A program made the translations under genes and the position numbers. Positions 1-5,859 of a stretch of 20,592 bases of DNA are shown in pieces. The DNA lies in IMG/VR virus record IMGVR_UViG_3300006869_000146, positions 1 to 20,592 of that record; one strand, written 5' to 3'. Position 1 is the stretch's first letter. Each line of letters starts with the position of its first letter. The stretch comes from a virus. The notes under the pieces were generated by a model, which was not told the origin of the DNA, did no database searches, and saw nothing but the letters and a program-made list of their open reading frames with translations.

Positions 1-2286
1 GCGTGTCAAATTGTTCTGTTCTCTCATTGCATTTGCAATCATATTTAACGATTCTTTTAAGTTTACACTCAAATGCTGGCCTCCGTCAACCCCATTATTT
101 GCCATTCTGTTATATCTTTCGGTTTCGCCCTTATCTAAAACACGTTCGTCTTTGTGAATGTATGCCAAAGTATCCGCAGGTTCTTTCGTCAAACCGGTCA
201 TTCCCTGTGTGCCAAAACTTCTGTATGTTGGAGTGATACCGCCAAACTGTTGTGCATTTTTTAAAGTTTCCGAATCTCTTAAAGGATTATACCTATAATG
301 ATAGGAAGTTCCTGTCATTTCGTCATAATACGAACGACTTTCGTCTTCGAGAAACTTTTGATATGTATTTAATCTATCAATTACTTTTAGCATTTGATCT
401 ATTGGCAACATCTCGGAAGTTCTTTTTCCCTCATAGTCCTCATCGAGTTTATACATTGTTTGACCTTGCTTGTTTGTATAACTTTCGATTAAATCATCAA
501 TTCCCATCCACCCTACTTCATAATCCTCAAATTTCTTTAGTATAGCGTCTCTTCTACCACTCAATATATCTTTAGTCTGTTGAATGTTAGCCTTTACTCT
601 CTCATCGATCATCTCTTTGAGGAATTTTCTGCCACTGTCGGTAGTTTGTTCATTTCTGGCTTTTTCCAACTCCTCCATGGTAGCACCGCTATATTTTGCT
701 TCTAGATCTCTTTTAAGTCCTTTGTCACTAACAGCAATGCCTAGTTTGTCATTAATTGCTAGCCTTAGATCCAACATTAAATCTGTCCAAACACTCTTTA
801 ACCAACCAAAGAATCCTTTTTGTTTAATGTCTTCTGTTATTCCCAGCATGAATTTGCTAAAATCGTCAGCCATTATTGGAAGAACTTCTGCCAGTTTTTT
901 CAAGGCACTCTGTACAGTCTCGGAACCTAGTATTTGTAAGAAGGTTTCATTAAAGACATCTCTAATTTTTTTCATTGCCAGTTCTAATTCAATAAATGTG
1001 TCTGTTAGTGTGTCTGTTTCACCTGCGGCACTTGCTTGAGAATTTAGGTAAGCGTTTGTAAATAGTGCCATTGAACTTCCCGCTTCACCGTATTGATCTC
1101 CCATCATTCCTAATATGGTAAAATATTTTGAATTTTTGTCAACAAAGGTTTTGTTGGTTTGTGCTAATCCCATCAACTGGCTGTGCATCGAGTTTGTAAA
1201 CATTTCCAAAGAACCGGAATGGGCCTTTGCCTGTCCGGCTAGGCTTGTGAATGTTCGATTTAAGCCTGGCATCAGTGATGAAAGATTTTGTGCGCCTTCG
1301 GTTAGTGGTGCAACTCCCATCAATGCCGCCTGCATTGCTTCAGCCATTGCTGGACCGCCGGTGCTGGCCGCTTTGATTAATTCTTCTGATGCTAGTTTTG
1401 CACCCTCTGGTAGAGTAGCAAGGAAGTTTTCAAACATCTTGTTTTGTTTCATTCTGTTTAATTCTTCTTCTTGCTCGTCAGCAGTTTTACCTGAAATTTC
1501 TGATAGTCTTCTTAAGTTCTTGACATAGTCATCTGAATTTTCAACCAGATAACTCATGCTCATTGTACCTTTTTGAATTGCTAGAGCATTAGCGGCAACC
1601 AATTCGTTGTATCTTTCGCTTTGTTCTTCAAAACTTACTCCGTATCGTAATAGTGTTCTGCCAAACTTATCACTCATTTCGGCAGTTAATTCTACTGCTT
1701 TAGCGGCACCCTGTGTTGCGGTTCCCATGTACGCCAATCTTTGGGAATTTTTTGTAAGTTCCCCGGCCGCTTGTGCAAGCGATACGCCCAGTTTTGTGCC
1801 CAATCTGGTCAGTGTGGTCATTCTATTACCAAACATGATACCACTGGATGATAATTGCTGGAATGTGTTATAGTTTTTTTGAAGCAAACTAACAACCGCT
1901 TCAAGGGCACTGCCTAGGCCCAAAAAGTCTCCGGTTGCACTTTTGATACCTTTTGCAAGATCAACAACCGTTGGTTGTGCATCAATTAAGGATGTGCTAA
2001 ACTGTACCGCCGCACTTCCTGCGTGTGCAAGGGCGGTAAACCCTTTAACAACACCACCCACAACCTTACCAAGGAGATTAAACCCAACGTTAACAACATT
2101 GAGACTTTTGCCTAGTTTTACCAAACCAGCGGTTGTTCCGCCGGCTCCACCACCAACTGCACCACCAACACCGCCGGTTCCTTTACCACTTTGGATTGCC
2201 TCCAAAATCTTCTTCATAGTGGCTTCTTCAGCCGCTCCGACTAGTTCTATGCGTTCGCCGTTGATTTCAGCAAATATGTTTGCCAT
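1..2286 (-). CDS. Tail tape measure protein, 3' end off the window
   Basis: An open minus-strand frame of 762 codons runs from the ATG at 2286 to the window edge without a stop, so the C-terminus is missing. Tape measure proteins set tail length and fill the tube lumen before DNA ejection. Seen here: a short N-terminal segment, a Gly-rich linker (residues ~34-50), a long Ala/Gly/Leu-rich, mostly helical body with hydrophobic stretches (~60-400), a charged helical part, and near the end IHKDERVL (~709-716). The last resembles the 'hKgErVl' motif common near tape measure C-termini. A GGGGA ribosome site lies just upstream of the ATG. It is transcribed divergently from the gp26-like gene, which is unusual because chaperone and tape measure normally share a strand. 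The role is inferred from composition, the motif and context. It could instead be another large virion protein. Confidence 0.75.
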   Translation of the reverse strand, partial: MANIFAEINGERIELVGAAEEATMKKILEAIQSGKGTGGVGGAVGGGAGGTTAGLVKLGKSLNVVNVGFNLLGKVVGGVVKGFTALAHAGSAAVQFSTSLIDAQPTVVDLAKGIKSATGDFLGLGSALEAVVSLLQKNYNTFQQLSSSGIMFGNRMTTLTRLGTKLGVSLAQAAGELTKNSQRLAYMGTATQGAAKAVELTAEMSDKFGRTLLRYGVSFEEQSERYNELVAANALAIQKGTMSMSYLVENSDDYVKNLRRLSEISGKTADEQEEELNRMKQNKMFENFLATLPEGAKLASEELIKAASTGGPAMAEAMQAALMGVAPLTEGAQNLSSLMPGLNRTFTSLAGQAKAHSGSLEMFTNSMHSQLMGLAQTNKTFVDKNSKYFTILGMMGDQYGEAGSSMALFTNAYLNSQASAAGETDTLTDTFIELELAMKKIRDVFNETFLQILGSETVQSALKKLAEVLPIMADDFSKFMLGITEDIKQKGFFGWLKSVWTDLMLDLRLAINDKLGIAVSDKGLKRDLEAKYSGATMEELEKARNEQTTDSGRKFLKEMIDERVKANIQQTKDILSGRRDAILKKFEDYEVGWMGIDDLIESYTNKQGQTMYKLDEDYEGKRTSEMLPIDQMLKVIDRLNTYQKFLEDESRSYYDEMTGTSYHYRYNPLRDSETLKNAQQFGGITPTYRSFGTQGMTGLTKEPADTLAYIHKDERVLDKGETERYNRMANNGVDGGQHLSVNLKESLNMIANAMREQNNLTR

Positions 2287-2311
2287 TATTTAAATCCCCA
2301 TTAAGTGCGTA

Positions 2312-2319
2312 TATAAATA
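2312..2319 (+). promoter_or_regulatory. T4-type late promoter (TATAAATA) for the gp26-like gene
   Basis: A perfect match to the T4 late promoter box TATAAATA, which is recognised by RNA polymerase carrying gp55. It lies 46 bases before the gp26-like ATG. Transcription would begin about 2325-2327, and a GAGG ribosome site follows at 2353-2356. Confidence 0.8.
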
Positions 2320-2323
2320 CATT

Positions 2324-2338
2324 TACTAATTATTAGTA
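2324..2338. repeat. 15-bp palindrome between the two facing late promoters
   Basis: TACTAATTATTAGTA is a perfect inverted repeat of 7-bp arms around one central T (2331). The midpoint between the two late boxes is about 2332, so the whole 2312-2352 segment is close to dyad-symmetric. The palindrome covers the expected start site of one promoter and adjoins that of the other. It may be an operator or a consequence of symmetric initiator sequences. Confidence 0.6.
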
Positions 2339-2344
2339 TAACGT

Positions 2345-2352
2345 TATTTATA
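2345..2352 (-). promoter_or_regulatory. T4-type late promoter (TATAAATA) for the tape measure gene
   Basis: TATTTATA on the plus strand is a perfect minus-strand TATAAATA late box. Transcription would start about 2337-2339 and run left into the tape measure ATG at 2286. The box abuts the GAGG ribosome site of the gp26-like gene on the other strand. Confidence 0.78.
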
Positions 2353-2365
2353 GAGGATAGCAACC

Positions 2366-3226
2366 ATGGAAAATCAAAGCGTTTTAAGCAAGTATAAACG
2401 TCAACCAAAAATTTACTTGAATTTGCCCAGCGGAGGCAAGTTTTACAAATCCAACCCAATGGAAAAATCAGGGTCTGGAGAATTACCAATTTATTCAATG
2501 ACAGCCAAAGATGAACTATTAATGAGGACACCGGATGCACTAATGAACGGTGACGCCACAGCAGAAGTTATAAAAAGTTGCTGTCCTTTAATCACCGATC
2601 CGTGGGATATTCCAATGATTGATTTAGATGCTATCCTAATTGCAATCAGAATTGCCACATACGGTGAATCCATGGACGTAGAAGTTCCGATTATGGGACT
2701 GGAAGAGCCAACTACCGAAAAAACATCGGTTGATCTTCGAGAAGTGCTTGACTCAATGCAGGGAAAAGAATGGCCTAACACATTCAAGTATCAGGATTTA
2801 ACGTTTCACATGAAACCTTTAACCTACAAACAAAGCACAGGATTTTATCAATCCACATACGAACAGCAAAGACTTACAGGGTTGTTACAGAGAGAAGATG
2901 TACCAGATGAAGACAAACTTAAGGCTTTTAAAGAAGGCTTTAAAAAACTCAGTGCTGTAACATTAGACATGATTCTAAGCCAAGTTATTGCTATTGAAAC
3001 TCCAGACGGAACAGAATCGAATCCAAGTGCTATTAGAGATTTCTTTAACAACACAGATAAGGATACCTTTGTAGCGGTTGAAAATCATTTGGAAGAAGTA
3101 AAAAATAACTGGACGATCAAACCTAGACGAATCAAGGTAAGCCAAGAACTTGTTGATAAAGGAGCACCGGAAGAAGTAAACGTTCCACTGATGTTTGATC
3201 AATCAAGTTTTTTCGTATCAAGGTAG
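2366..3226 (+). CDS. 26: gp26-like baseplate hub assembly protein (zero-frame product)
   Basis: A 286-residue protein of the T4 gp26 / T4 baseplate protein family. The N-terminus has the family pattern LPSGGKFY (residues ~20-27), then a 'SMTAKDE.LMRTPDALMNG' region (~43-62), paired cysteines (~71-72), and an acidic segment ending in IRIATYGE (~94-101). T4 gp26 (208 residues) is needed to assemble the baseplate hub but is not found in the finished baseplate, so an assembly-factor or tape measure chaperone role fits. The start is supported by GAGG nine bases upstream and a late promoter at 2312-2319. The zero frame ends in SSFFVSR-stop, three codons after a T TTT TTC heptamer, and a -1 frame continues to 3444. 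Family assignment is good; function here is by homology. Confidence 0.85.
   Translation: MENQSVLSKYKRQPKIYLNLPSGGKFYKSNPMEKSGSGELPIYSMTAKDELLMRTPDALMNGDATAEVIKSCCPLITDPWDIPMIDLDAILIAIRIATYGESMDVEVPIMGLEEPTTEKTSVDLREVLDSMQGKEWPNTFKYQDLTFHMKPLTYKQSTGFYQSTYEQQRLTGLLQREDVPDEDKLKAFKEGFKKLSAVTLDMILSQVIAIETPDGTESNPSAIRDFFNNTDKDTFVAVENHLEEVKNNWTIKPRRIKVSQELVDKGAPEEVNVPLMFDQSSFFVSR
3208..3214 (+). other. Programmed -1 ribosomal frameshift site, T TTT TTC
   Basis: In the gp26-like frame the codons read AGT TTT TTC GTA TCA AGG TAG, giving the heptamer T TTT TTC in the X XXY YYZ register required for tandem -1 slippage. The zero-frame stop is at 3224-3226. After slippage reading continues CGT ATC AAG GTA and stays open to TAA at 3442-3444. 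Phage P2 uses the similar T TTT TTG in tail genes E/E'. No strong downstream stem-loop or close upstream Shine-Dalgarno stimulator was found, so efficiency cannot be judged. Confidence 0.75.
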
Positions 3227-3444
3227 CAACACTCTCGATTTCTGAAATTATAGAATACGTTAAAGATCTAGAAAATCAAGCAAAGAGTATTGTTGCCGAT
3301 CTAATTAGATTATCCTGGTATATGCGTGGTGGACTTCAAATAAAAGATGCTTATCAAACCACCTTTGAAGAAAGACAAGCAATAGGTGAACTTGTTCAGG
3401 AAAATTTTAAAAATACCAAAGATACTGGAATTAGTTTTATCTAA
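3214..3444 (+). CDS. -1 frame extension of the gp26-like protein (predicted chaperone fusion)
   Basis: This stretch encodes 76 residues read only after -1 slippage at 3208-3214, giving a predicted fusion of about 359 residues. The frame is open from 3199 to 3444 and has no ATG, GTG or TTG before the ATG at 3322. That ATG has no ribosome site and would leave only 40 residues. The peptide includes IRLSWYMRGGLQIKDAY and, further on, a 'FEERQAIGELVQEN' segment. This aromatic-MRGG pattern followed by a short helical pair is what I recall from frameshift-extended tail assembly chaperones and from small ORFs after gp26 in T4-like phages (T4 has gp51 there). The ORF fills the gap completely and overlaps the convergent gene's end by 8 bases. 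Coding status is likely; the role is inferred. Confidence 0.72.
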   Translation, partial: RIKVATLSISEIIEYVKDLENQAKSIVADLIRLSWYMRGGLQIKDAYQTTFEERQAIGELVQENFKNTKDTGISFI

Positions 3445-3955
3445 TTGATTTAAGCAAGGCTCGCAGTTTATTTCTGCCTTGTGGATCATCCAATGCTGTT
3501 CTTACCGCTTGAAGAACCGGAGCAAGTTCAGATAGTTCATTTTTGCTAGGCACTCTGCCCTGCTGTATTTTGTTCAACCCTGTAATAATAAGTTGTGGAT
3601 TTTCAAATCCCAATTCCTGCTTGAGCATGTTCAAACCACTTCTGGTTTTGCTGTCGGTGTTACCTTTTTTATCCTTGGCTATTTCATCACCGTCATCGTA
3701 TGCGTTTTTAGCCTTGTCGATTTTTTTGACTATTTTGTCTTTAAGTCCTTTTAGTCCCGTAGGATCATCAAAGCCTGATGCAAACGCACCAAGTGCATTA
3801 GTTGGATCTTTTGTTTTTACGGTTTGTGTAGTTTGTGTTGATTTGCCAATACCAAACTGTTTTTTCATTGCCGCAATTTCTTCTTCTGTGGGAGTGTTGC
3901 CCGCAATGTTGACCTGTTGAACACCATTGGGTGTTTCGACTTTAATAACTGGCAT
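3437..3955 (-). CDS. Unknown protein, 172 residues, coupled to the upstream gene
   Basis: A basic, mostly helical protein of unknown function. The N-terminus (MPVIKVETPNGVQQVNIAG, then a TPTEEEI helix) is a short beta pair followed by a helix, a pattern I associate with N-termini of phage structural proteins. The middle is Lys/Asp-rich and low in complexity (~45-105). The C-terminal ~60 residues form amphipathic helices ending in LRALLKSIR. Its ATG overlaps the stop of the preceding gene as TAATG, so the two are probably translationally coupled under the late promoter at 4639-4646. A late virion or head/tail accessory role is plausible. The stop overlaps the end of the -1 frame ORF on the opposite strand by 8 bases, leaving no room for a terminator. 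Confidence 0.75.
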   Translation of the reverse strand: MPVIKVETPNGVQQVNIAGNTPTEEEIAAMKKQFGIGKSTQTTQTVKTKDPTNALGAFASGFDDPTGLKGLKDKIVKKIDKAKNAYDDGDEIAKDKKGNTDSKTRSGLNMLKQELGFENPQLIITGLNKIQQGRVPSKNELSELAPVLQAVRTALDDPQGRNKLRALLKSIR

Positions 3956-4620
3956 TAGTTAAATCTCCAAACACCATCTTTGCCCTGTGTCATGCCACCC
4001 GCGGATTGACCTGTGCTTGTGGGTTTAGTATCTGTACCCCCGGTATTAGGAGCAAAAGAACTTGCGCCTCCTAGGTCAGCACGTTGTTGGAATCCTGCTC
4101 TAACAATGTACATGAGAATTTGATCAATTGCTTTGTCGCTTAGTATTTGGGATTTTGGTACCGCTTCATACATGCTTGCGGCTACTTTTTCTTGTTCCTT
4201 GCCACCATCCTGCACGTTGAGATTTGGTTTTAGTGCGGTTGGTTTTGCACCGGTCATTTTTGGTAAACCTTTTTTAAAGTTCTTCCAACCCTTGGCAATT
4301 TTTTGTGCTATGCCTGGGTTTGGTTTACCTACACTTTTTGCAATAGAATCTAATTCCTGTGTGTTAGCAATTGGAAAGCCTTTTGCTTGTAGGTACTGTA
4401 CCATAATTTCTTTTGTGGGTTGCTGTGCATTAGCGTTTTTCCAAAAACTGGTAAACTGCTTTTTAAGTGCATTAGCCTCTTTGCCAATCGCGCCAGCGTC
4501 GGCGGCTCGCTGAGAGCCCATTTTTGCGGCAACTTTATCGCCTAGACCTTTTAGCATACCGTACGGTGCTTCATCGATCTTTTTTGCTTCGTTTAAAACA
4601 GCAACTTCATTAATTTTCAT
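3955..4620 (-). CDS. Unknown protein, 221 residues, first gene of a late pair
   Basis: No family was recognised. The protein starts MKINEVAVLNEAKK, has a Lys/Ala-rich helical first half (residues ~20-130, including QPTKEIMVQYLQAKGFP), a helical segment 'DKAIDQILMYIVRAGFQQRA' (~160-180), and a Gly/Ser/Thr-rich disordered tail ending in DGVWRFN. There is no signal peptide or membrane helix. A strong AGGAG ribosome site sits immediately upstream of the ATG, and a perfect late box lies at 4639-4646. Late expression suggests a virion or assembly protein. The same operon continues with the 172-residue gene through a TAATG overlap. Confidence 0.75.
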   Translation of the reverse strand: MKINEVAVLNEAKKIDEAPYGMLKGLGDKVAAKMGSQRAADAGAIGKEANALKKQFTSFWKNANAQQPTKEIMVQYLQAKGFPIANTQELDSIAKSVGKPNPGIAQKIAKGWKNFKKGLPKMTGAKPTALKPNLNVQDGGKEQEKVAASMYEAVPKSQILSDKAIDQILMYIVRAGFQQRADLGGASSFAPNTGGTDTKPTSTGQSAGGMTQGKDGVWRFN

Positions 4621-5427: not shown

Positions 5428-5859
5428 TTATGTTTTGCCTAATTTTTCGAGTGCTTCTTTGAGAATCTTTGAACTGCCTACTCTTACATTAATAATTCCG
5501 TTATAATACTCGTCTGTCTCTAATACTCTGCGTTCAAATTGTTCTCTAGCCTCAAGATAACTCATTAAGCCTCTGCTATTACAAAAATGGAGAATTTCGC
5601 GTGTGAACTTTTCTGGGCCTAGTGCCTCAACGTCTGCCTGTAAATGATCTGAAGATCCCCAATAGTCTCTCCAATCACTTTCAACTTTGCTTCTTCGTTT
5701 GTTTTTCTTGCCTTTGAGTGGTGGGCGTGTTTTCTTGAATTTTGCTAATTTTTTGCCTACGTACTTACGATTGTTGGTAGTGTTTGTTATCAGGTAAACA
5801 AAACCTTCGCAATCTTGCGGAAGTTCTTGTACTATTTTGCCCTGATAAGTCCACTCCAT
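5428..5859 (-). CDS. GIY-YIG nuclease, Seg-like, 143 residues
   Basis: A free-standing GIY-YIG domain protein resembling the Seg-type endonucleases of T4-like phages. The first strand reads GFVYL (residues 19-23, the GIY position) and the second KYVGKK (32-37, the YIG position). A Lys/Arg-rich insert RPPLKGKKNKRR (~45-56) and SDWRDYWGSS (~61-70) follow, then a helix YLEAREQFE with the likely metal-binding Glu (E103), and finally N124 in IINVRVG. This order matches the family fold (about 90-100 residues), with no clear added DNA-binding domain. Such enzymes nick or cut DNA and often act as homing endonucleases. It is the last gene of the gp47-gp46 leftward operon, 24 bases after the small basic gene. 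Catalytic activity is inferred. Confidence 0.82.
   Translation of the reverse strand: MEWTYQGKIVQELPQDCEGFVYLITNTTNNRKYVGKKLAKFKKTRPPLKGKKNKRRSKVESDWRDYWGSSDHLQADVEALGPEKFTREILHFCNSRGLMSYLEAREQFERRVLETDEYYNGIINVRVGSSKILKEALEKLGKT

Follow-up and report, generated by a model that had tools for sequence, protein, structure and literature searches.

A T4-type tail assembly chaperone gene with a probable programmed -1 frameshift in a viral contig, and its relation to T4 genes 26 and 51

The sequence examined was the whole of IMG/VR record IMGVR_UViG_3300006869_000146, 20,592 bases in length and referred to below as the window, and the features discussed here are collected in Table 1. The zero-frame gene begins with an ATG at 2366 and terminates with a TAG at 3224-3226, and its 3' end reads AGT TTT TTC GTA TCA AGG TAG. 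The stop codon starts 16 nt after the first base of the heptamer T TTT TTC, with three sense codons (GTA TCA AGG) lying between TTC and the stop, and the in-register position of the heptamer described in an earlier note made from the letters alone was thus confirmed by coordinates and frame reading. Following a slip, the -1 frame is read as CGT ATC AAG GTA from 3214 up to a TAA at 3442-3444, which would give a fusion of 359 aa, and the first ATG, GTG or TTG in this frame is found 98 nt beyond the zero-frame stop, so the long open frame without an early start, which the same note had pointed out, was also verified.

Table 1. Coordinates of the features of the chaperone locus in the window
Feature	Position	Strand	Remarks
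Probable tape measure protein gene, divergent neighbour	1..2286	-	Truncated by contig end
Zero-frame gene, tail assembly chaperone short form (T4 gp26/gp51 family, PF12322, phrog_150)	2366..3226	+	286 aa
Slippery heptamer T TTT TTC	3208..3214	+	In phase; kept in relatives
-1 frame extension, long form only	3214..3444	+	76 codons and stop; no early start codon
Candidate stimulatory stem-loop	3222..3297	+	3222-3229 with 3290-3297; 3231-3235 with 3284-3288; unproven in window sequence

The heptamer alone is not rare, since TTTTTTC occurs 18 times in the window against 15.5 expected. The probability of finding it in phase among the final 14 codons was 0.0013 by codon shuffling, and that of a -1 frame remaining open for at least 73 codons past the stop was 0.007. 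Among the 16 genes of the window, the gene at 2366-3226 was the only one that had a heptamer near its stop along with a long -1 ORF other than simply the next annotated gene.

The zero-frame product matched PF12322 with 31.6 bits, which is above the curated cut-off of 24.5, and phrog_150 at 2.6e-12. Its AlphaFold2 model had a pLDDT of 86.8, and the top Foldseek viral match of this model was a T4-like baseplate hub assembly protein (E 3.3e-19, TM 0.84). A fold search of the PDB with the same model gave no match at E<=0.001, and no solved structure was found by sequence search. The extension was modelled as all-helical with a pLDDT of 90, and is thus predicted to be a helical C-terminal domain; searched alone, the window extension had no match among the PHROG and Pfam families. 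The window protein is 25-30% identical to its relatives from jumbo-phage isolates, and the CxxC (zinc-ribbon-like) motifs kept in the seven jumbo isolates are absent from the proteins of the window clade (2366-3223 in the window).

A long divergent ORF adjoins the chaperone gene in 66 of 69 relatives. One aligned homologue of this neighbour matched tape-measure PHROGs at 2.7e-6, while no match to these PHROGs was obtained for the window copy and no alignment to it for T4 gp29. The neighbour is probably a tape measure gene, and the adjoining tape measure gene proposed earlier is tentatively supported in the form of a divergent, tape-measure-like ORF. Elsewhere in the window, a SegE-type GIY-YIG endonuclease (5428-5859, minus strand; PF19835, 5.6e-36) adjoins gp46/gp47-like nuclease genes, and several jumbo relatives carry an endonuclease VII in the region corresponding to its site.

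The protein search identified Serratia BF, Sinorhizobium Phosso, PA5oct, Atu_ph07, XaC1, 121Q and fEgEco12 as the jumbo-phage relatives in the identity range given above, all of which have a long -1 frame and, 10-40 nt ahead of the stop, an in-phase TTTTTTC. This layout of heptamer and -1 frame is common to 121Q, RaK2, BF, PA5oct, Atu_ph07, KVP40 and Syn9. At least 598 relatives came out of a scan of viral contigs, and for the best 80 of them together with the isolates, the in-phase heptamer was present in 87 of the 87 loci with a readable stop. After removal of near-copies, 76 sequences with less than 90% nucleotide identity (median 60%) were kept, in which the slip-site codons were TTT in 76/76 and TTC in 76/76, against a background phenylalanine codon usage of 77:23 for TTT:TTC. 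The codon before the slip site was AAT, AGT, CAT or ACT, thus ending in T in all 76 relatives, and among 51 well-conserved columns of multi-codon amino acids, only the two slip-site Phe codons were codon-invariant. For a second set, obtained by a scan started from cyanophage and KVP40 proteins, the heptamer was found in 80/80 loci, exactly 10 nt before the stop. The alignment of relatives which had been proposed as a check on the heptamer and the -1 frame thus showed both to be conserved.

TTTTTTC was also seen in Aeromonas 65, LPCS28, Astolliot, PhiW-14 and S-RIM8, and TTTTTTT in phiM19 and HTVC008M. Counted against the frameshift reading is Vibrio phage K386 (positions 2043-2260 of its locus), in which the -1 ORF is kept and the site holds no heptamer of the form X XXY YYZ; the zero-frame stop of this phage overlaps an ATG, and it may therefore have switched to coupling. 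The pN/pS ratio of the extension was 0.43 in the -1 frame, and in the other two it was 0.94 and 1.36, demonstrating purifying selection on the -1 frame. Bacillus phage G was considered as a family member and dropped, as it had a weak phrog_150 match (E 0.002) and no -1 ORF of this kind.

RNA directly 3' of the slip site was more stable than expected from synonymous resampling, with a mean z of -1.73 (SE 0.20) for the window clade and -1.70 (SE 0.18) for the cyanophage clade, and the excess stability was absent by +36 nt in both of these separate clades. The claim of RNA structure made here is based on this resampling test and not on any single stem. For the window sequence, a stem of 13 possible pairs starts 7 nt 3' of the heptamer, and its z depends on the stretch folded: -2.17 for 100 nt, +1.05 and +1.60 for shorter stretches, and -0.54 with flanks. 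This uncertain status of the window stem-loop was counted against the frameshift reading. The consensus stem across relatives had five pairs and one compensatory change, and a single conserved stem-loop is therefore not claimed; no match was found in Rfam.

The overlap of start and stop codons in some relatives brings up another explanation, namely that ribosomes re-initiate at the zero-frame stop, or are coupled there, and translate the downstream ORF as a gene of its own. TAATG or ATGA overlaps occur in several relatives, whose annotation shows two genes, and the ATG of the -1 ORF overlaps the zero-frame stop in 121Q, BF, Phosso and Atu_ph07, which was counted against a pure frameshift and by which coupled re-initiation could contribute in these four phages. 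It cannot, however, explain the window or PA5oct because neither has a nearby start codon, the latter having no ATG, GTG or TTG in its -1 frame at all; moreover, the start codons vary among relatives, whereas the heptamer and its Phe-Phe codons are invariant. As a general account of the locus, we therefore regard a separate downstream gene as very unlikely. As a separate observation, an ATG of the -1 frame overlaps the zero-frame stop in some relatives (3822-4031 of one locus and 3876-4055 of another), and a free extension protein might thus be made in such relatives besides the fusion.

Two further explanations concern the run of T itself. The two frames would fuse into a single continuous ORF if one extra T were present, as would be expected if the run had been misread in sequencing or assembly; however, exactly six T followed by C were found in two further near-identical contigs, and the same T6-C in over 150 further loci, some of them from finished isolate genomes, which refutes an error in practice and leaves it with a negligible probability. 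The long form might also be made by slippage of the RNA polymerase instead of the ribosome, as a homopolymer run exists and one added U leads to the same frame. Six T are short for transcriptional slippage, the run is no longer in the window-clade relatives, and the conserved unit is an in-phase X XXY YYZ with RNA structure at the usual distance, all of which makes this origin extremely unlikely.

We conclude that 2366-3444 is, with high probability, one T4-type tail assembly chaperone gene giving two products by a -1 slip at T TTT TTC. The programmed frameshift in a tail assembly chaperone layout put forward in the earlier note is thus supported, and for the sequence observation behind it the conservation in relatives is decisive. 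Most ribosomes would terminate at 3224 and produce the short form, while a minority, a low to moderate fraction, would slip back by one nucleotide at the heptamer with both Phe tRNAs re-pairing on TTT TTT, probably aided by the RNA structure just downstream, and would produce the long form with its helical C-terminal domain. The chaperone action itself is proposed from lambda G/GT and T4 genetics: by analogy with G/GT, the short form would serve as a coat on the tape measure protein and the long form, through its extension, would bring in tail tube or hub subunits, with both forms departing before the tail is completed.

T4-like tail assembly chaperone genes were reportedly identified in 2022 by Vladimirov, Gautam and Davidson (Virology 566:9-15), and the idea of a chaperone frameshift is therefore not new here. 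For the RaK2/121Q/PA5oct-type lineage, no report of frameshifting was found in the literature searched, some of which phages may be covered by the 2022 study, and the present finding would thus extend the published T4-like principle to a marine and jumbo-phage lineage. Some T4-like phages are described as having a fused long gene beside a short one (PMC10885494), and poly-T -1 slip signals are cited for T4-like chaperone genes (PMC12846349). A review of 2016 treated T4 as the exception to the conserved G/GT frameshifting (PMC5009743). Similar to lambda G/GT, the window gene has a probable -1 frameshift site near its end and a probable tape measure gene beside it, and both lambda products are absent from virions (PMC5009743); the likeness is one of layout. 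The differences are that the window slip sequence is T TTT TTC and that its likely tape measure gene lies divergently and not downstream.

The literature counts T4 gp26 and gp51 among the hub assembly chaperones (PMC3004832). Each of them matches PF12322 and phrog_150, so that they belong to the same protein family and represent short and long forms as in the window gene, with the difference that T4 obtains its two forms from two paralogous genes, which lie on opposite strands, and the window from one gene with a slip site. T4 gp26 ends in GLKEFFELL, in which the two phenylalanines are encoded by TTC TTT with no slip site, and stops where the slip site would be, while gp51 runs in frame into the extension. 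Judged from these sequences, the whole gene has two paralogues in T4, gp26 resembling the unshifted and gp51 the shifted product. The unshifted window protein is therefore related to both of them, and the 76-aa extension would have its counterpart solely at the end of gp51. Of the proposal that a gp26/gp51-type pair is joined here as one frameshifted gene, the single gene with two forms is retained, and the correspondence has to be revised in that gp51 matches the long form and not the extension alone.

The -1 ORF of Syn9, P-SSM2, S-PM2 (all annotated with gp26 and gp51) and KVP40, which have heptamer and -1 ORF as in the window, matches the C-terminal part of T4 gp51. The cyanophage and KVP40 extension, at about 55-65 codons past the stop, is the shorter one and its match to the gp51 end is clear, with an hhalign probability of 97.1% for the cyanophage extension, whereas the window-lineage extension matches weakly, with a probability of 41% (p 2.8e-4; shuffles <=1.5%), so that its similarity to the gp51 end is suggestive only. 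Direct hhalign of an eight-sequence profile against single T4 gp26 or gp51 gave low-confidence, misplaced alignments and was rejected; family profiles worked.

In the phylogenetic tree, gp26 and gp51 form a group (93/91) beside the frameshift-type proteins, which fall into two deep clades. The tree was rooted at its midpoint only, and the direction of change is therefore one that we infer. It seems likely that the frameshifted gene is ancestral to the whole T4 superfamily including the jumbo lineages, and that T4 genes 26 and 51 came from one duplication, after which the extension was lost from one copy and became fused in frame in the other. In Enterobacter phage EC-F2 (positions 2001-3291 of its locus), a gp51-type and a gp26-type gene stand in tandem and share a strand, with a wedge gene after them; in T4 the two are on opposite strands. 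This tandem is possibly an intermediate of the duplication.

In general, the analysis indicates that the frameshift is retained in much of the T4 superfamily, T4 itself having two genes in its place, and natural pairs are now available for testing the role of the extension. It also suggests that many phages carry a wrong annotation in which the gene is split in two ("gp51", "hypothetical"); in S-RIM8 and KVP40 the -1 ORF bears an annotation of its own, "baseplate hub assembly catalyst", and the KVP40 record already likens the small ORF to the end of gp51. In addition, Foldseek with the zero-frame model linked proteins of about 450-690 aa from the jumbo phages Ralstonia RSF1 and RP12, Erwinia Special G and phiEaH2, and Aeromonas PS1 with TM of about 0.4-0.5, and these fold matches could be unrecognised chaperones.
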